From Erysipelotrichia bacterium (GTDB lineage: Bacteria > Bacillota_I > Bacilli_A > Erysipelotrichales > Erysipelotrichaceae), in assembly GCA_009916335.1 (NCBI GenBank), contig SAAR01000139.1, positions 1 through 8,841 on the forward strand: a stretch of 8,841 bases of DNA, given 5' to 3'. Below are positions 1,741 through 8,841 of this stretch, piece by piece. The translations under genes were made by a program, and so were the position numbers. How positions within the stretch are numbered: the stretch's first letter is position 1; each line of letters begins with the position of its first letter. The notes under the pieces are model-generated. The model was not told where the DNA came from. It saw nothing but the letters and a program-made list of their open reading frames with translations, and made no database searches.

Positions 1741-2578
1741 ACATATGTTCAAACTTAAGACCCAGCAATCCTGCTTCCTCAATTTTCTTTTCATCCAAAT
1801 GGATTTGATAGTCTTCATAAGAATGAACGTCAAACGAATCCAATTGCTTATAAGTTAACATATCAAACACTTTAGAACTTGATATCACACCTAACTTAGA
1901 AGGATGTGTGAACCAGTATATCTCTTTCACATCCATGCTCCCTTCAGGTCTTGCAGAAGAAGAATCGTTTACAAAAAGAGTACGAAGACTTTCCTTAAGT
2001 ATATCAACATCTTCATTCGAAAAGCCGGTTTTTTCTGCAAAATAAGCATTTATGCTTCCTTTAATCAAGTATACTCCGTACTCCACAAATGGTTTTGTTC
2101 CCATGGTATCTGAAGATCTTCCCTCTGCCTCCATTCCGTTTGTGCTACGAGTGATTTGCATTGAAGTAATATTTACAGGAGAGAGACTTTTGGCCATGCT
2201 GATTGATACTGGACCACGTATGCCAATCGATTTTTTGTCGAATGTAATAACCTGTCCGAAACTTCTTACGTCGAGCCATTCATCGCATGCTCGTTTATAG
2301 ATTTCATCATCAATGTCTTTAGGTGAAAATAAATTTTGATATCTTTTTTGAAGAGAACGGAATCCATCGTCAATACGATCATTAGACTTTACAAAAATAT
2401 TATATCCCATATCCTGCATGCGATTGCGAATTTTCCTTTTAATACTGACATCACTCATTACTCCTAGGCCCTCTAAGTCGGTTCTGGGATAATTTCCATT
2501 TAATGGGTCCCCATTAGGATTAGCGTCCACAACTTGTACTGTTACAATAAAATCAACCTTTTTTTCAAACTTCGTCAT
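1730..2578 (-). CDS. cas7: Cas7c (Csd2) backbone subunit of type I-C Cascade
   Basis: This 282-residue RAMP protein coats the crRNA spacer as the repeated backbone of the I-C effector. Its thumb flips out every sixth guide base, which bears on the 7928 guide described below. Family hallmarks are DANPNGDPLNGNYPRTD (residues 18-34), RGPVSI (121-126), NITSMQITRS (136-145), RSSDTMGTK (154-162), the AEKTGF segment (181-186) and NDSSSARPEGSM (204-215). The length is normal. A very strong site, GGGGAGGA (2594-2587), lies 8 nt before the ATG and inside the end of cas8c, which overlaps by 14 nt. This site is one of the strongest in the operon, in keeping with the need for about seven Cas7 copies per complex. 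Confidence 0.97.
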   Translation of the reverse strand: MTKFEKKVDFIVTVQVVDANPNGDPLNGNYPRTDLEGLGVMSDVSIKRKIRNRMQDMGYNIFVKSNDRIDDGFRSLQKRYQNLFSPKDIDDEIYKRACDEWLDVRSFGQVITFDKKSIGIRGPVSISMAKSLSPVNITSMQITRSTNGMEAEGRSSDTMGTKPFVEYGVYLIKGSINAYFAEKTGFSNEDVDILKESLRTLFVNDSSSARPEGSMDVKEIYWFTHPSKLGVISSSKVFDMLTYKQLDSFDVHSYEDYQIHLDEKKIEEAGLLGLKFEHMYGL

Positions 2579-2948
2579 GATTATTTTCCTCCCCTTGATT
2601 CATTTTTTTTGTATAAGTTTGTTTTTTTTGAGCGTAGTAACCGAAAATAAAATCTTCGTTCAATCTTGAATTTTGTTGTCCACTGCTTAAATTTAACTCA
2701 TTGATTGCATTAGTCACTTCTGACAGCAAAGCATCATAGTAATAATAATATTTATTGTTTTTTTTCAATCGATCCAGGTAAGGTCTGATTCTCTTGATAA
2801 GTATTCCGTACGTTTTTTGAGGTGACTGCATATATGTCGCCCAAAGTTTTTCAGCGTTAGTAATTTTATCACTACTTGTTGCAGTCGTTTCGATTAGTTC
2901 AATTACAGCCAGTAACCTACCATACAAGTAATCCCTACTATTATTCAT
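2565..2948 (-). CDS. cas11c: Candidate Cas11c small subunit translated from inside cas8c
   Basis: Type I-C effectors are known to contain a small subunit, Cas11c, made by internal initiation near the 3' end of cas8c and in the same frame. Here an in-frame ATG at 2948 would give a 127-residue helical protein beginning MNNSRDYLYGRLLAV, a good match in size and position to the known case. A strong Shine-Dalgarno sequence, GGGAGGA, sits at 2977-2971. Its spacing does not fit the ATG well (22 nt), so an in-frame TTG at 2957 (13 nt) is an alternative. The purine-rich GGACGAG next to the ATG could also serve. The existence of Cas11c follows from the family; the exact start is my inference. Confidence 0.55.
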   Translation of the reverse strand: MNNSRDYLYGRLLAVIELIETTATSSDKITNAEKLWATYMQSPQKTYGILIKRIRPYLDRLKKNNKYYYYYDALLSEVTNAINELNLSSGQQNSRLNEDFIFGYYAQKKQTYTKKMNQGEENNHDEV

Positions 2949-4502
2949 CTCGTCCAACTTACTTGTCACTTCCTCCCGTTTGTAATCCCATTTATATTTT
3001 TTTAATACAGAACATGCAGTGTTTAACAGCGTATCCCATCCTTCTTTGTAAGCAATGCGTTTCGATAGATTATTCATTGTCTTATTCACAATATCCATCG
3101 GTATTTTTTTCCCATCCACTATAGATGGCAGCAATCGCTCCACAGTTTTTTTCCGCAAGGCATCATCATACATTTCAATGCGTTTTGAATCTTTATTAAA
3201 ATGTCCATATGTAACATTGGCAATTTGAGACAATGAAGGTGTCTTTACTTTTAGATATTTCCCATAACCATACTGCCAATTTGTTGTTGCATACCAGTTG
3301 CTGACGCGAGTGGTCAAATCCCCCATAAATATTTCCCTGAAATATTTGACGGATATTCTTCCATTACTAACTTTATCAATAATTAGTACATAGAAACGTA
3401 AGCTATCAAAGTCTTGGTATAAAGCAGAATGTGTACTCAGCATTTCCCCACGGATATGATCATTTACAATCTGCGCTTTGTTAGAAGTTATCGTATATTC
3501 TTCCGTGTCATCCCAAAAAGATAACGAATCATCCTCAACTTGAGCCTGTGAAAATGTTTGTTCACCCATAAAATCATAATCATAGTCCTGCAAATCTACA
3601 CTCGGCCAAGTTACGACCCTAGAACTAGCATCCAGCATGTGACTGGTACTTTTATTTTCCAGTAGATACTTCAACATATTATGAATTTTCTGAGAGGTGA
3701 CATATCCCACTTTGGTAACAGAAGAACCATCCTCGAATCGACCATAATACGTCTCAATGTGGTTACTAACTGAAATTAATTTCGCATTCCCCATAAGGCC
3801 GCGGTGTTTTTTAGTACAATAGGTTTGTAGCCCACTAATATCACATATCTCTTTTGGTAATTTGTCTAATTCACTTTCAACAAAGCTGATATAGTTTTTA
3901 TGTAATTCCTTATCCTTTGAAACTTTCCGGTTTCTTTTTGACTTTGTTTCAATGCAAAATGTAATAAAATCTTTCGAGGATAGAGTGAAATTACTATCAT
4001 CAGCCGATACCATAATTTTATTAGCATCGATTTTATATGCTGAACGAGGATAAAGATAGAGTATTATGTCGCTTAAGAGGGTATCTTGTTTCAGATATTT
4101 CCATATACTGTTCAATACGATATTTCCATTGTCTCCATCATTAAAGTTTACCCATTTTTCAAGATTCGAAATGTACGCATCAAATTTTTCTTGTGAAAAA
4201 GCGCTAGTGATATAGGATAATTCATCACACAGAGGATGTGGTGCCTTATCATTTGCCCTTGCAACAGAAGCTTCCGTTACGGGGAAAATGATAATTTCAT
4301 TTTTTTCAAGGTAGTTCGCCCTTAAAAAGTCTCCCTCTTCGCTTAGTGTTATTTCAATGATATCTTTTCCGTTATTAGAGCGTTTGTTAGTATGAAATAT
4401 CGGTAGCAATACTGCACTATTATTTAAATTATCCACATCATCAACCAAATCGCTCTCTTCACAACTCAGATAAGTTTCATATAAAGCAGTAAATACATTC
4501 AA
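2565..4502 (-). CDS. cas8c: Cas8c (Csd1) large subunit of type I-C Cascade
   Basis: This 645-residue large subunit recognises the PAM and starts DNA unwinding in the I-C effector. The assignment rests on the APHPLCDELSYI segment (about residues 87-98), the GYVTSQKIHNMLKYLL segment typical of Csd1 proteins, the C-terminal helical region with DYLYGRLLAVIE, and the position between cas5 and cas7. The start codon is TTG at 4502-4500. It is supported by GGAGGAGGTG (4520-4511), exactly 8 nt upstream; the nearby ATG at 4498 is in another frame. The ribosome site lies in the last codons of cas5c, whose stop is 5 nt before this start. Sequence conservation in this family is low, so finer domain limits are uncertain. 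The 3' part probably also encodes Cas11c separately. Confidence 0.95.
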   Translation of the reverse strand: MNVFTALYETYLSCEESDLVDDVDNLNNSAVLLPIFHTNKRSNNGKDIIEITLSEEGDFLRANYLEKNEIIIFPVTEASVARANDKAPHPLCDELSYITSAFSQEKFDAYISNLEKWVNFNDGDNGNIVLNSIWKYLKQDTLLSDIILYLYPRSAYKIDANKIMVSADDSNFTLSSKDFITFCIETKSKRNRKVSKDKELHKNYISFVESELDKLPKEICDISGLQTYCTKKHRGLMGNAKLISVSNHIETYYGRFEDGSSVTKVGYVTSQKIHNMLKYLLENKSTSHMLDASSRVVTWPSVDLQDYDYDFMGEQTFSQAQVEDDSLSFWDDTEEYTITSNKAQIVNDHIRGEMLSTHSALYQDFDSLRFYVLIIDKVSNGRISVKYFREIFMGDLTTRVSNWYATTNWQYGYGKYLKVKTPSLSQIANVTYGHFNKDSKRIEMYDDALRKKTVERLLPSIVDGKKIPMDIVNKTMNNLSKRIAYKEGWDTLLNTACSVLKKYKWDYKREEVTSKLDEMNNSRDYLYGRLLAVIELIETTATSSDKITNAEKLWATYMQSPQKTYGILIKRIRPYLDRLKKNNKYYYYYDALLSEVTNAINELNLSSGQQNSRLNEDFIFGYYAQKKQTYTKKMNQGEENNHDEV

Positions 4503-4507
4503 TTTAT

Positions 4508-5263
4508 CTACACCTCCTCCATTTTACATTTTTCGTATTCCTCATCTACTGATGTTATTCCATCAAGCATAAAATTTTTGATAGAATAATCTCTGAGTTC
4601 TTGACGAATTACGCACTCCTCAGGTCGCCCGAATGTAATCACACCTTCATGCATCTGAATAGCTGAAAAGTTGGATACTAATTTTCCAGCTGAAGATTCA
4701 TCATATGATTCTCCTGGATAAGAAAATGAATGAAACATAATCCCAAAATTAATAGATTTGTCATGATAGTAAGGGACTGCATCTTGATAGTCAGTCGCGC
4801 TTATTCTTTCTACCGCTCCAATGCATTCCCTAGTCCCAATAAAAACATCCCGTCGTCCACCTCTGTCTAGTGAACGCAACAATATTTGTTGATGCTTTAT
4901 CTCTTGTCTATCGTTCTTCAAATCAGGACGATTAAGATTCCATTCAAAATGAAATTTCACCAAGTATTCAACTTTTGTGAGATACGTATAGTAACTAAGA
5001 TCATTGCCTCCGTTTCCGGTCGTAATTATCGGCCGCATACCCATCGTTTCAGTCTGGATTGGATTCATCACTTTCAATTCATCGATAAAAAAAAGCAGTG
5101 TTGGCTTCCAATAAATACCCTCTGTAATTCCTTTCATAGCCTGATATGTAGGGATTGGATAGGTAAATTTCTCTCCTCCCCCTTTTGTGACCGGATCCGT
5201 AAATAAAGCATATTCTCCTGTCAAGCGATAATAAAAAGGTTTCGACTTAAATTGTCTATCCAT
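4508..5263 (-). CDS. cas5: Cas5c (Cas5d) crRNA-processing endoribonuclease
   Basis: Type I-C lacks Cas6; this 251-residue RAMP protein cleaves the repeat at the base of its hairpin, leaving an 11-nt 5' handle, and stays on that handle in Cascade. The residues matching the catalytic Tyr/Lys/His set known for Bacillus halodurans Cas5 appear as Y40 (PTYQAMKGI) and K123-H124 (EIKHQQI). The GGRRDVFIGTREC segment (135-147) is also typical. The length is normal. GGAAGGAG (5278-5271) precedes the ATG by 7 nt, and cas3 ends 20 nt upstream. The short repeat at 7905-7927 keeps the handle this enzyme would leave, so Cas5c is the expected processing enzyme for that RNA. Confidence 0.96.
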   Translation of the reverse strand: MDRQFKSKPFYYRLTGEYALFTDPVTKGGGEKFTYPIPTYQAMKGITEGIYWKPTLLFFIDELKVMNPIQTETMGMRPIITTGNGGNDLSYYTYLTKVEYLVKFHFEWNLNRPDLKNDRQEIKHQQILLRSLDRGGRRDVFIGTRECIGAVERISATDYQDAVPYYHDKSINFGIMFHSFSYPGESYDESSAGKLVSNFSAIQMHEGVITFGRPEECVIRQELRDYSIKNFMLDGITSVDEEYEKCKMEEV

Positions 5264-5283: not shown

Positions 5284-7764
5284 TTACGGTAAAAGCAATT
5301 GCAATGCACTTATGTTTAATCCAATTTTTTCATCGTAATATTCCTTCAACAAAATATTTATCGAGCCATCCATTAACTCTTCAACGTAATCTTTCATTTT
5401 ACCTATATCATACACCTGTATTGTATACGGTTGCAATTTTTTTAAAACTTTTTTCACATTATTGAATTCATATTTTTGTATTGATTCATGTAGTTCTTCT
5501 ATGTAATCCAATACGTCGCTATGGGTATCTGAAAAGAAATAAGGAACTATGACTGTGACGGTTTCTTGTTTAATCAGATCAAAACTTTTACCAGCTGTCA
5601 AAAAAGATTGCGCTATAAACAAAGAATTATTCAGTTCATTGCAACTATCCCGGGCTTCTTTGTTGTATCCTAATAATTCTATCAAGTTAGTTCCATTCGT
5701 GTTGTAACCCATTAACGAGGTCTGATTTGCATAATGTTTTTCATAATACAATTCCTGTAATTCCTCTAAATGGAATATTTGGTCGTTATCCGTAATGTTC
5801 AATTGATTCATGGCATATAAGCTTGCATTCCTTGCTTCTTCAATTTCTTTTAGACTCTTCAAATTTTCTTCTTCGTATTTAAAAATTTTAAATAAACCAC
5901 GAGATAATTTACCGTTTCGATTACAGCGACCGGCTGCCTGAATCAAAGAATCCACTCCGCTTAAGGAACGGTAGACAACATTAAAGTCAAAATCCACACC
6001 AGATTCAACTAATTGAGTGCTGACCACGATAATTTTTTCAGGATCGGTCACTTCTTTAAGAGTAATCTTTTCAGTGTAATCCTTAATTTCATTAATAATT
6101 TTAATCCTATGTGCCGCACATAAATTAGTGGTTAAATAGAATATCTTAGACTTACTAACTTTTTTTAATTCTTCGTATAAGGTTAGAACAGCTTTTTTTG
6201 TATTCAGGATTATCAAGACACTTTTATAGTTGCTTAAATCATAGTTTATCTTATATATGAGTTCACTTGTATTCAATGTCTGCTGATTTTTCCCTATTAA
6301 ATTATACGCATCTACTCTGGCAAAACTCTTTTTCATTGTTTCATCAAGAATTGCCAAATCAGCGTTGAAATTAGAATTCTGAGTATATTCTATTGGATAG
6401 TCTAGTTCCGAATAATCTAAGGTAGGTTGAGTGGCAGTACACAAAACAATATTGGTCTTCATGATAGTACTCATAAAGTTCATCATCAGATTGAAATGAT
6501 ACAGCACATTAACTGGCAAACTTTGGACCTCATCAATAATAATTATGCCATCAATGAATTGATGGAACCGTCGAATATTACTGCTCTTATCTTTAAACAT
6601 CGTTTGAAAAAACTGAACCATTGTTGTTAGTACCACTGGGCTGTTCCATGAATCAATCAAATACTGTTTTTGTCGATAATCTAAAGTTGAGGATTCCTCA
6701 TCTGAATTAGTGTCTCTTTCGCTTATGATGTTGGAATGATGCTCCAAAATATAATCTGAATCAGATAATGTTTTTTTTATAACCGCAGCATTTTGTTCGA
6801 GAACAGATAGAAAGGCAGTTATGTAAAAAATGCGTTTTTTATTGTGCGAACAAGCGTTGTTTATAGCATAGCGCAAAGAAGCATGAGTTTTGCCAGATCC
6901 GGTTGGCATTTCCAGTTTGTATATGCCATAATTATTTTGTATGCCGGCAACACGAAGCTGTTCCGAAAGAAACACACGATTTTTATTAAGCTCACTCGGA
7001 TTTTCAGATTCACTAAATTGCCGTGCGATATTTTCAACTTCTTGTAGGCTTCTTTTGAAAAAATCCTCCTTTTCAGTTTCATCTATCTTCTTAGTTCTAT
7101 CGTCTTCAAATACATTCGCAGAGTCGTAAATATCACCCTCTTTTAATATTGATAATCCCAACCGAACAATGCAGTGTAAATAGTACGCATAGGCGTTCTT
7201 TAGTAATTTTTTATTTTTCTGATTGCATAATTTAAGTATTTTACTATCTATTGTCTCAAATTCCATTAAAGCATCAGAATAAAAGTCCTCCAAAGTTTTC
7301 CCTTTTTGCTTGAATATATCTTCCTTCAATTGATTCACGAATGGTATGACGTCCTCTTCAAAATGATACTCTTCAGTTTTATCGTATGTTATCCGTCTCT
7401 TCATAATGTAATCGCATTCAAAATTTACCACATCAAACAAACCATGATGTGAAAAAACTATGTACTGGATAATTTCGTTCATTACCTTCTGAGATCTTTT
7501 AATTGGACTTTTCCCTAAAACATTAACAAGGTATTTCCCACCTGCCGAAGAATGGTTCACCCGGTCTTTTGTTCCATTGTTGATATAATGCTGAAAACGA
7601 CGATCCGCCTTACCAAGATCATGCAGTATCCCTACTAAATACATAAAGTTGGATAATTCAATATGAGCACCTGTCTCTTCACAATATTCAGCAACGGAGA
7701 ATAGATGCTCTGATAACGATTGTTTTTTCCCATCTGTATTTGATTCTCTATGTGCAATTATCAT
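5284..7764 (-). CDS. cas3: Cas3 HD nuclease-helicase
   Basis: This 826-residue protein is recruited to Cascade-bound DNA, unwinds it 3'-5' and degrades it. The N-terminal HD nuclease shows H48-D49 (ILHDLGKADRRF), H71 (NHSSAG) and H106-H107 (FSHHG). The SF2 helicase shows Walker A PTGSGKT (287-293), Walker B DEVQ (411-414), motif III TAT (443-445), VESGVDFDF (586-594) and motif VI QAAGRCNRNG (609-618). All are intact, so the enzyme looks active. The frame is open to an ATG at 7800, but I choose 7764: AGGTGA (7775-7770) precedes it closely and MIIAHRES fits Cas3 N-termini, whereas the upstream ATG has no ribosome site. It is the first gene of the operon, so the promoter and RNA target upstream control the whole set. 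Confidence 0.96.
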   Translation of the reverse strand: MIIAHRESNTDGKKQSLSEHLFSVAEYCEETGAHIELSNFMYLVGILHDLGKADRRFQHYINNGTKDRVNHSSAGGKYLVNVLGKSPIKRSQKVMNEIIQYIVFSHHGLFDVVNFECDYIMKRRITYDKTEEYHFEEDVIPFVNQLKEDIFKQKGKTLEDFYSDALMEFETIDSKILKLCNQKNKKLLKNAYAYYLHCIVRLGLSILKEGDIYDSANVFEDDRTKKIDETEKEDFFKRSLQEVENIARQFSESENPSELNKNRVFLSEQLRVAGIQNNYGIYKLEMPTGSGKTHASLRYAINNACSHNKKRIFYITAFLSVLEQNAAVIKKTLSDSDYILEHHSNIISERDTNSDEESSTLDYRQKQYLIDSWNSPVVLTTMVQFFQTMFKDKSSNIRRFHQFIDGIIIIDEVQSLPVNVLYHFNLMMNFMSTIMKTNIVLCTATQPTLDYSELDYPIEYTQNSNFNADLAILDETMKKSFARVDAYNLIGKNQQTLNTSELIYKINYDLSNYKSVLIILNTKKAVLTLYEELKKVSKSKIFYLTTNLCAAHRIKIINEIKDYTEKITLKEVTDPEKIIVVSTQLVESGVDFDFNVVYRSLSGVDSLIQAAGRCNRNGKLSRGLFKIFKYEEENLKSLKEIEEARNASLYAMNQLNITDNDQIFHLEELQELYYEKHYANQTSLMGYNTNGTNLIELLGYNKEARDSCNELNNSLFIAQSFLTAGKSFDLIKQETVTVIVPYFFSDTHSDVLDYIEELHESIQKYEFNNVKKVLKKLQPYTIQVYDIGKMKDYVEELMDGSINILLKEYYDEKIGLNISALQLLLP

Positions 7765-7769
7765 GATTG

Positions 7770-7778
7770 TCACCTCTT
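7770..7778 (-). promoter_or_regulatory. Ribosome binding site deciding the cas3 start
   Basis: On the minus strand AAGAGGTGA ends 5 nt before the ATG at 7764. No comparable purine-rich site lies before the ATG at 7800. This places the translation start at 7764 and leaves about 50 nt of untranslated leader if transcription starts near 7815. Confidence 0.8.
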
Positions 7779-7815
7779 GATGGTAATATAGCATACTCAT
7801 TTTCTAATTGCAATA

Positions 7816-7835
7816 ATTAATATATATAAATAGAA
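7816..7835 (-). promoter_or_regulatory. Protospacer-like operator with TTC PAM in the cas promoter
   Basis: Read on the minus strand, 7835-7833 is TTC and 7832-7816 is TATTTATATATATTAAT. The spacer-like sequence at 7928-7944 is TATTTCTATATCTTAAT, so 15 of 17 bases agree and the only mismatches are guide positions 6 and 12. Type I effectors do not pair every sixth guide base, and TTC is the known type I-C PAM. Beyond position 17 the agreement falls to chance. This is the pattern of a site that is bound, but should be too short for full R-loop formation and Cas3 cutting. Both sequences are AT-rich, which raises the chance background. Confidence 0.82.
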
Positions 7836-7845
7836 TCTTTATAAT
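7817..7845 (+). promoter_or_regulatory. Probable promoter of the crRNA-like RNA
   Basis: TTAATA (7817-7822, 4 of 6) and a perfect TATAAT (7840-7845) are separated by 17 nt, predicting a start near 7852 and a transcript of about 145 nt ending at the terminator. The -35 lies inside the guide-matched site, so effector binding there could repress the RNA as well as the cas operon. Confidence 0.5.
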
Positions 7846-7850
7846 GAAAA
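7821..7850 (-). promoter_or_regulatory. Probable cas operon promoter
   Basis: On the minus strand TTTTCA (7850-7845, 4 of 6 to the -35 consensus) is followed after 16 to 18 nt by TATATA-type -10 elements within 7828-7821. Transcription would start near 7815. The run of TA dinucleotides makes the exact -10 ambiguous; a weaker alternative uses TTGTTA at 7860-7855. Whichever is used, the guide match at 7816-7832 covers the -10 or the start region, so effector binding there would block RNA polymerase. Confidence 0.5.
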
Positions 7851-7869
7851 TCCCTAACAAATAAAAAAT

Positions 7870-7898
7870 TTGAATTTCCTTTACCTATCATGTAATAT
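7870..7898 (+). promoter_or_regulatory. Alternative promoter just before the short repeat
   Basis: TTGAAT (7870-7875) and TAATAT (7893-7898) are 17 nt apart, each 4 of 6 to consensus, and would start transcription at about 7905, the first base of the repeat. It is weaker by sequence than the 7817-7845 promoter. Mapping the 5' end of the RNA would decide between them. Confidence 0.3.
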
Positions 7899-7903
7899 TA
7901 CAT
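7890..7903. repeat. Perfect 14-bp palindrome next to the short repeat
   Basis: ATGTAATATTACAT is its own reverse complement and ends one base before the repeat. It may be a protein operator overlapping the alternative -10. In a longer transcript it would form a small hairpin (stem AUGUA/UACAU) 5' of the repeat. No regulator can be named from it. Confidence 0.6.
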
Positions 7904-7904
7904 T

Positions 7905-7927
7905 GTCGCGTATGCGTGGATTGAAAT
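7905..7927 (+). CRISPR. Solitary shortened type I-C CRISPR repeat
   Basis: The 23-nt element starts GTCGCG and ends GCGTGGATTGAAAT, whereas ordinary type I-C repeats are about 32 nt of the form GTCGC, variable stem, GCGTGGATTGAAAT/C. About nine internal bases are missing, so the hairpin shrinks to CGC/GCG around a GTAT loop. What remains is what Cas5c needs at the 3' side: the base of the stem and the 11-nt handle TGGATTGAAAT (7917-7927). There is only one copy in the window, so it is not an array. It reads away from the cas operon. Confidence 0.85.
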
Positions 7928-7933
7928 TATTTC

Positions 7934-7951
7934 TATATCTTAATAGATATA
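7934..7951 (+). repeat. Inverted repeat inside the guide
   Basis: TATATCT (7934-7940) and AGATATA (7945-7951) are perfect complements around the loop TAAT. The 5' arm lies in the part of the guide that matches the cas promoter. The 3' arm covers guide positions 18-24, where the target match ends. In free RNA this 7-bp AT-only hairpin could hide much of the guide; it might also be a DNA operator. Confidence 0.6.
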
Positions 7952-7954
7952 AGT

Positions 7955-7995
7955 GCCCGTGCAGAATTTTCATGTTCTGCACGGGCTATTTTTTT
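7955..7995 (+). terminator. Strong intrinsic terminator of the crRNA-like RNA
   Basis: GCCCGTGCAGAA (7955-7966) and TTCTGCACGGGC (7975-7986) form a perfect 12-bp stem around an 8-nt loop, followed by TATTTTTTT (7987-7995). The T-run is only on the plus-strand side, so it serves plus-strand transcription. The only plus-strand candidate upstream is the repeat-guide unit. The stable stem would also protect the 3' end of the RNA. Confidence 0.93.
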
Positions 7996-8098
7996 GTTCT
8001 GTAATACTAATTTTTCAGAGTCAATTGTCCTAAGCTCAGCAATTTACTATTTCATGAGTCTCCTCAATTTGTTAATCTCCAATTTTTGGGTTTAGTCG

Positions 8099-8134
8099 TT
8101 TTGAGTCTTTTTATCATTGTTTCCTTTTGAGTCT
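8099..8134. repeat. Short direct repeat TTTTGAGTCT
   Basis: TTTTGAGTCT occurs at 8099-8108 and 8125-8134, 26 nt apart start to start, and a related GAGTCT occurs at 8056-8061. Their role is unknown. They could be remains of duplicated sequence or binding sites. Confidence 0.4.
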
Positions 8135-8195
8135 CTTTCCGTCATAAACACCACCGCTCAGTGATTTCCATACTATAAAGCATACATCTATATAG

Positions 8196-8208
8196 TTTGA
8201 TAATCAAA
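8196..8208. repeat. 13-bp palindrome TTTGATAATCAAA
   Basis: The arms TTTGAT and ATCAAA are perfect around one central base. On the minus strand it overlaps a possible -35 (TTGATT, followed after 17 nt by TATGCT). It may be an operator, but no gene downstream is convincing. Confidence 0.4.
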
Positions 8209-8278
8209 TCATTTTCATCACTTTTCTCCATCATTTCCACTTCTTAATTCCGCTCATATCATTTCCCCGCCCCATCTA

Positions 8279-8293
8279 AAAGTGCTACACTTT
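8279..8293. promoter_or_regulatory. Inverted repeat upstream of the right-hand promoter
   Basis: AAAGTG-CTA-CACTTT is a perfect 6-bp-arm inverted repeat ending two bases before the -35 at 8296. The position suits a regulator site for the gene at 8399. No matching regulator gene is in the window. Confidence 0.35.
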
Positions 8294-8295
8294 AG

Positions 8296-8324
8296 TTGAT
8301 ATAAAAGCAATCATCAGGTTTAAT
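8296..8324 (+). promoter_or_regulatory. Sigma-A-type promoter of the 8399 gene
   Basis: TTGATA (8296-8301) and TTTAAT (8319-8324) each match consensus at 5 of 6 positions with 17-nt spacing. Transcription would start near 8331, giving a leader of about 68 nt before the ATG at 8399. Confidence 0.65.
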
Positions 8325-8398
8325 TATGTACAGTCCACATGGGGCACTCACAACGACTTTCAAATCAGAATCATCCTCAGGAATGGAGAGAAAAAACT

Positions 8399-8841
8399 AT
8401 GGATACGATCAGCAATTATGTAGATTCCGTCTTCGCACAGTTACCAACCACTCCCGAAGTATCAGAGCAAAAGAACGCCATGCTAACGAAAATGCAGGAT
8501 AAGTACCAACAACTGAAAGCTGAAGGCAAAAGCGAGCACGAGGCAATCAGCGGCGCCATAGCAGCTCACGGAAACATCGATGACTTCACCTCATCGTCCA
8601 CAGCATCCGCTTCGGCTGCACCTGCAGCAACCCCTGAAAACGAGGTCTTCCTTTCTCCCGAACAAGTCGACGAATACATCAATCATCGCCACCACTTCGC
8701 TTGGGCGATGGCGACCGGTGTTTTCTTGTGCATCATGGGGCCGGCCAGCCTGTTCCTTGGCCAATACCTCACCGGTTTCAGGGGAGGCCGCACGAGTGAA
8801 TTGTTGGATATCCTGACGATTGTCCCGCTGTTCCTCTTTAT
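8399..8841 (+). CDS. Membrane protein with permease-prefix-like N-terminus, 3' end missing
   Basis: A reading frame starts at the ATG at 8399 and runs to the window end without a stop, giving the first 147 residues (MDTISNYVDSVFAQLP...). GGAGAG (8385-8390) lies 8 nt upstream. Residues 1-63 form a charged helical domain, with NYVDSVF near the start and a KYQQLKAEGKSEHEAI..AIAAHGNID pattern. It resembles the permease prefix domains found before membrane regions in Bacillota. A low-complexity Ser/Ala/Pro linker (64-80) leads to a second short soluble part. A membrane segment follows at about 100-122 (WAMATGVFLCIMGPASLFLG), and a second starts near 135. The function is unknown; such proteins are often paired with PadR regulators, but none is seen here. 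Its G+C content is clearly above that of the cas operon, so it is probably native chromosome beside an acquired CRISPR block. Confidence 0.75.
   Translation, partial: MDTISNYVDSVFAQLPTTPEVSEQKNAMLTKMQDKYQQLKAEGKSEHEAISGAIAAHGNIDDFTSSSTASASAAPAATPENEVFLSPEQVDEYINHRHHFAWAMATGVFLCIMGPASLFLGQYLTGFRGGRTSELLDILTIVPLFLF

Follow-up and report, generated by a model that had tools for sequence, protein, structure and literature searches.

The window analysed here, a stretch of 8,841 nucleotides of DNA, carries a stand-alone repeat and a short guide upstream of cas3, and together these very probably encode a crRNA-like RNA, a CreR (cas-regulating RNA) of type I-C. Judged from sequence, this RNA would direct Cascade to a TTC-flanked target beside the cas3 promoter, and the cas operon would be repressed without cutting by Cas3. 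The sequence supports this reading through a repeat whose handle and stem base are retained, a guide set in register with it, a TTC beside the target, the pattern of pairing, a terminator, open cas genes, and relatives in which changes in the guide are compensated in the target.

Six genes on the minus strand, all of which match their families in a profile search, make up a type I-C operon: cas3 (5284 to 7764; TIGR01587 and TIGR01596), cas5c (4508 to 5263; TIGR01876), cas8c (2565 to 4502; TIGR01863), cas7, also called csd2 (1730 to 2578; TIGR02589), cas4 (1069 to 1740, the coordinates of the stretch scanned, with the ORF start not fixed; TIGR00372), and cas1c (47 to 1072; TIGR03640). The cas3 start at 7764 was placed by its ribosome site, and the ORF could open at 7800. 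Outside the window, a 101-amino-acid ORF beyond cas1c resembles Cas2 by eye, and the CRISPR array has 30 copies of the 32-nucleotide repeat GTCGCACTCTACACGAGTGCGTGGATTGAAAT in the stretch read, with spacers mostly of 33 to 36 nucleotides, one of 42, and three gaps that are partly or wholly masked. Cas3 is 100% identical to Cas3 of Trichococcus flocculiformis DSM 2094, and the genome of the window is that of a Trichococcus. For cas3, a promoter scan predicted TTGCAA-17-TATATT on the minus strand (7785 to 7813, with the −35 at 7813 to 7808), with TG ahead of the −10; this promoter would be weak as sole evidence, since the scan found 7 such sites against 3.5 (standard deviation, 1.6) in shuffles.

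Divergent from cas3, on the plus strand, the degenerate stand-alone I-C repeat GTCGC-GTAT-GCGTGGATTGAAAT occupies 7905 to 7927, as identified from the array repeat and a genome search. Its 23 nucleotides correspond to the array repeat minus 9, with the first 5 and last 14 nucleotides retained and the hairpin tip gone. The last 14 nucleotides, with at most one mismatch, have a single match on that strand with the whole genome searched. A further match to the repeat end, with one mismatch, lies on a different contig of the genome (G000:C39:56794-56807). As the repeat stands single, the element differs from an ordinary array, with its at least two full repeats and spacers. The 5′ handle TGGATTGAAAT, which we take to be 11 nucleotides long, is expected at 7917 to 7927 on the plus strand. 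By a simple measure the repeat hairpin of the window has 3 bp, no better than shuffles (mean, 3.3), and by folding it has 4 to 5 bp.

A strong intrinsic terminator, whose hairpin (7955 to 7986, plus strand) leads into a T run, was found by terminator prediction and folding, and the region from 7904 to 7993 folds far better than shuffled sequence (z of −6.55; 0 of 200 shuffles), which is largely owed to this terminator. Just upstream of the repeat, a possible promoter for the RNA, TTGAAT-17-TAATAT (7870 to 7898, plus strand), was read by eye; it is weak by consensus (8 of 12) and was not listed by the promoter scan. A perfect 14-bp palindrome, ATGTAATATTACAT, lies over its possible −10 at 7890 to 7903 and could be an operator. 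The guide can also fold on itself at 7934 to 7951 (7 bp as predicted), and this structure might interfere with pairing ahead of loading. An Rfam search of 7500 to 8400 gave nothing that reaches its gathering score, the best hit scoring 23.3 where the cut-off is 59.

The part of the guide that matches the target, TATTTCTATATCTTAAT (7928 to 7944, plus strand), starts with no gap behind the repeat end GGATTGAAAT. The protospacer-like target, TATTTATATATATTAAT, is found at 7816 to 7832 on the minus strand, with a TTC PAM directly 5′ of it (7833 to 7835, minus strand). The earlier note had aligned the guide with 7832 to 7816 at 15 of 17 positions, with mismatches at guide positions 6 and 12 only, in register with the repeat end and with TTC immediately 5′ of the target; its letters and coordinates are correct, and we confirmed the mismatches, the register, and the PAM. 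That pairing is lost from position 18 also agrees with our data, the match falling off past 17 in the window and standing at background in the relatives described below. The assignment of the match to the cas3 promoter stands as regards the promoter region, but the target is placed a little upstream of the predicted −35, off the hexamers.

No other place in the window, on either strand, matches the 17 bases of the guide as well, the runner-up reaching 13 of 17. In dinucleotide shuffles of 7765 to 7903, the check that the earlier note had proposed, a TTC-flanked match of 15 of 17 was seen in 0 of 20,000 and one of 14 or better in 11 of 20,000, so its estimate that chance would give such a match in well under one case in a thousand is borne out once the PAM is required. 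Without this requirement 15 of 17 was reached in 11 of 5,000 shuffles, and the PAM therefore carries part of the weight in this AT-rich region. When we scored 15 positions with 6 and 12 omitted, a scheme adopted with the finding already known, and required TTC, none of 20,000 promoter shuffles reached all 15, and shuffling the guide gave this score 3 times in 20,000.

We then compared type I-C loci, picked by Cas5c score, from three overlapping samples: the order (395 genomes, 31 of them with Cas5c), the class (398 genomes, 53 with Cas5c), and the phylum (398 genomes, 103 with Cas5c). The 97 loci comprise 29 from the order, 60 from the class or phylum, the window's own, and 7 named loci; one of the 97, L017 from T. 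flocculiformis DSM 2094, duplicates the window and carries its element. From the order, 29 of 31 were taken, the remaining two being the window's genome and its near-duplicate G003; from the class, 39 of 53 matches were examined and 14 low-scoring ones left out; from the phylum, 28 of 103 genomes were used and 75 left out. Relatives of the element were collected blind to targets, by the handle alone: TGGATTGAAAT with at most one mismatch, GAAA fixed, and no neighbor at array spacing. This rule returned 64 stand-alone handles, compared with 13 when the same sequences were reversed, and the 52 that lie upstream were kept, the 12 dropped being the one in L017 and 11 downstream of the cas5 start. 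For each, the best site within 600 nucleotides of the element was scored on the 15 positions with no PAM demanded.

This best local site reached at least 12 of 15 in 36 of the 52 elements, compared with 271 of 2,436 for unrelated guides on the same regions (9 of 2,436 with TTC). The 5′ triplets of the 36 strong sites were TTC in 31, CTC in 2, and TAA, ATT, and TTT in 1 each, and once TTC and at least 13 of 15 were required, 29 of 52 own guides remained, against 2 of 2,436 unrelated ones. The other 16 candidates had no strong match within 600 nucleotides; some unmatched elements look genuine by eye (L067, L086 at 5325, L108, L133, L141, and L018). A [CT]TC site scoring at least 12 of 15 was present for 34 elements, and of the 96 nonduplicate loci 34 yielded a qualifying element and 62 yielded none. 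The combination on which the earlier note relied (register, TTC, mismatches at flipped positions, and loss of pairing at 18) recurs at loci with different guides.

The pattern of pairing could be read with sites chosen on one part of the guide and examined on another. Of the 24 elements with TTC sites picked on guide positions 9 to 11 and 13 to 17, all match at positions 1 to 5, 7, and 8; the share that match is 17% at position 6, 33% at position 12, and about 30% on average at positions 18 to 30. Sites picked on positions 1 to 5 and 7 to 10 (n = 33) match at 82 to 94% for positions 11 and 13 to 16 and at 52% for position 17, dropping to 12 to 42% for 18 to 30. Across the 34 elements there are no mismatches at positions 1 to 5 and 7, 28 at position 6, 22 at 12, 17 at 17, and 19 to 29 at each of positions 18 to 30. 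We considered selection for a mismatch at position 6 and rejected it, as its 28 mismatches in 34 compare with about 24 in 34 on average at positions 18 to 30 and free drift suffices.

Differences between the guides of relatives were matched by the target in both loci in 91 of 108 cases at paired positions (1 to 16 without 6 and 12) and in 2 of 38 cases at positions 6 and 12; neither the elements nor these comparisons are independent, the 34 falling into 16 clusters, one of them with 14 members. In the sister Trichococcus loci L056 and L057, the guides differ at positions 6 and 12 only. Each sixth guide base is described as flipped out in class 1 complexes in the cited part of PMC11127173, and free positions 6 and 12 are therefore a signature of reading by Cascade.

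The targets of the 34 elements lie upstream of cas3 in 15 cases and between cas3 and cas5 in 19. In orientation, 21 of the 34 guides, the window's among them, share the sense of the cas strand, and the other 13 target the opposite strand. In 15 of the 21 cas-sense cases, again with the window, a −35 starts 17 to 32 nucleotides past the target start, a count that has no shuffled control and asks that one of the two best promoter candidates per locus fit; at this spacing, a Cascade body extending beyond the paired part would cover the −35. At three loci with opposite-strand targets (L112, L114, and L115), the PAM adjoins the cas5 ribosome site. A hairpin of at least 4 bp at the repeat base is kept in 29 of 34 elements, against 39% in shuffles, and 21 of 34 have a terminator-like hairpin behind the guide, its first base at guide base 16 to 47 (counted without a shuffled control).

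Some individual loci depart from this layout. In L107 (1565 to 1643) the best target, 15 of 15 with TTC, is directly upstream of the element itself, before a 252-amino-acid ORF that is not cas3, and the element may control its own RNA or that ORF. In L085 (5309 to 5413, cas5 on the plus strand) a 34-amino-acid ORF follows the target, and then a hairpin ahead of cas5. The element at oriented position 539 in L135 has a best match of 14 of 15 that is flanked by TTT, which the excerpted text of PMC10865793 gives as a PAM used by Neisseria I-C too.

A second use of the same RNA design appears in one genus (g37), which we infer to be Enterococcus. In 8 of its 12 loci (L063, L066, L068, L069, L071, L073, L075, and L076), with elements upstream of cas3, the target precedes a hydrophobic ORF of 27 to 62 amino acids, with the guide matching either the start or the promoter region of this small ORF and not the cas promoter. 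By eye, a terminator-like hairpin and its T run come after the ORF, and then promoter-like sequence for cas3. The ORF seems to be its own transcription unit. This layout makes the locus a candidate type I-C CRISPR-regulated toxin-antitoxin pair with the ORF as putative toxin. Matches of the small ORFs to Pfam were weak, all below the cut-off (best E value, 0.0049), with a membrane-toxin model at 0.052, and were set aside. We take very short hydrophobic ORFs at L060:2380-2472, L066:2231-2323, and the end of ORF L076:1320-1574 to resemble Fst-type toxins. Four loci of the genus have no small ORF, and two of these carry a MazF/PemK-like gene in its place, in the regions L067:2190-2761 (PF02452; E value, 4.9e-23, in a profile search of L067 only) and L072:2188-2780 (both with cas5 on the plus strand), each adjoined by a MazE-like ORF as judged by eye. 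L067 retains the stand-alone repeat, and its guide has no good local match.

The Enterococcus-type loci bear on the window, where a CreA-type antitoxin RNA would have Cascade keep a toxin gene repressed and would thereby punish any loss of Cascade, with cas not the regulated gene. That 8 of 12 such loci aim the same design at a small hydrophobic ORF speaks for this; in the window, however, the target begins about 50 nucleotides from the cas3 start with no ORF between, and the nearest promoter-like site drives cas3, which makes an antitoxin there improbable. We consider a decayed array remnant without function, matching by chance, to be improbable to the same degree. The repeat is indeed single and shortened, no second repeat was found, and guide and target are AT-rich, but the shuffle results, the terminator, and the recurrence of own-locus matches with compensation in relatives all argue against decay. 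If guide and target were instead inverted operator copies for a DNA-binding protein, one could account for two similar 17-bp sequences that flank a divergent promoter region with the 14-bp palindrome (7890 to 7903) between them. Such a protein is nevertheless very improbable, given that TTC adjoins the target only, the match starts exactly at the repeat end, the free positions are 6 and 12, and the sequences vary by locus yet keep their pairing.

An antisense RNA pairing with cas mRNA would fit an RNA that is divergent from cas3 and near its 5′ end. The target, however, is upstream of the predicted −35, and the guide is of the same sense as cas3, as for 21 of 34 targets, so that pairing with cas3 mRNA is impossible and this explanation is extremely improbable. 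A solitary I-C repeat unit could also inhibit the CRISPR system by repeat mimicry, as a Racr would, and an RNA of this kind, RacrIC1, is known from the cited part of PMC10651486; the element sits in a host cas locus rather than a phage and its guide matches a cas promoter, and we regard mimicry as very improbable. Reading of the guide by Cascade would predict recurrence together with uncompensated positions 6 and 12, which neither a relic nor a protein operator nor an antisense RNA would, and this prediction is supported by the compared sequences. On the evidence given for each, we rejected the relic, protein-operator, antisense, Racr, and CreTA readings of the window.

CRISPR-derived regulatory elements were reportedly described by Shmakov et al. 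in 2023 (NAR) as stand-alone repeats with spacers that partly match cas promoters, and the window has just such a repeat and spacer. Cas9 is likewise said (Workman, 2021) to be autoregulated by a natural single-guide RNA whose limited pairing guides the effector to its own promoter; the window effector is predicted to be guided in the same way, whereas the Cas9 system is of type II and its RNA is, reportedly, unrelated. For RacrIC1 we know of no promoter-matching guide. As described, after Liu et al. (2023, Cell Host Microbe), in the cited parts of PMC13131331, PMC12737573, and PMC12948488, a CreR is a crRNA-like RNA of the cas locus that is partly complementary to its own cas promoter, and PMC13131331 reports them for types I-B, I-E, and V-A. 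The window element shares these features, with predicted autorepression by the effector: its repeat-like sequence is within the cas locus and outside the array, its guide has limited, PAM-flanked complementarity to the promoter region of its own cas genes, and guide and target are conserved jointly among relatives. It differs from the CreRs in those parts of the reports in being of type I-C, with Cas5c as processor and one repeat plus a terminator, and in that its repression is predicted.

CreA, the RNA antitoxin of CreTA, has in the excerpt of PMC9458426 a degenerate repeat, or two of them, and a spacer-like portion by which Cascade is guided to a promoter. The window element has the same composition and is also aimed at a promoter, but the gene predicted to be repressed is cas3 and not a toxin, no ORF being found between target and cas3; as far as that excerpt goes, the Enterococcus-type loci are nearer to CreTA. 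With RacrIC1, a phage RNA anti-CRISPR, the element has in common that it is a solitary I-C repeat; unlike the phage-encoded inhibitor described in the cited part of PMC10651486, it is chromosomal and lies within the cas locus. A cas-regulating RNA of type I-C was not among the literature matches listed, a search with the primary CreR papers outside its scope, and we do not claim absence from print.

For the type I-C CreR that we favor, the following course can be proposed. The RNA would start near 7905 and end at the terminator, and Cas5c would cleave it beneath the shortened hairpin and keep hold of the handle. Cascade would unwind the target as far as about position 17 while its body covered the −35, and this short R-loop would fail to license Cas3; to judge from type I biology, about 17 paired positions would be too few for Cas3 cutting. 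In the portions cited, Cas5c processes I-C crRNA and holds its 5′ handle (PMC7684278), and an engineered I-C Cascade with the PAMs TTC and TTT silences a promoter that it overlaps (PMC10865793). The outcome would be negative feedback, in which more Cascade lowers cas transcription. On the pattern of published CreRs, the RNA would vie with array crRNAs for Cascade, and the brake would be released by anti-CRISPRs.

Beyond the window, we see about an even chance that these elements form a phylum-wide class of I-C single-repeat guide RNAs, often ended by a terminator and read by Cascade over some 17 positions, each sixth base being free, and mostly acting as cas brakes and, in the Enterococcus version, as the antitoxin of a small membrane protein in a type I-C CRISPR addiction module. 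If our reading of the window is true, RNA-guided cas autorepression would extend to type I-C, which the cited part of PMC7684278 calls one of the most prevalent bacterial subtypes. The relatives would then be a natural record of the pairing needed for Cascade action without cutting, at positions 1 to 5, 7 to 11, and 13 to 16 or 17, so that the threshold between binding and cutting becomes directly testable, and natural short guides would be on offer for silencing with native I-C systems. It also predicts that anti-CRISPRs disabling the I-C Cascade would increase cas expression in these bacteria.
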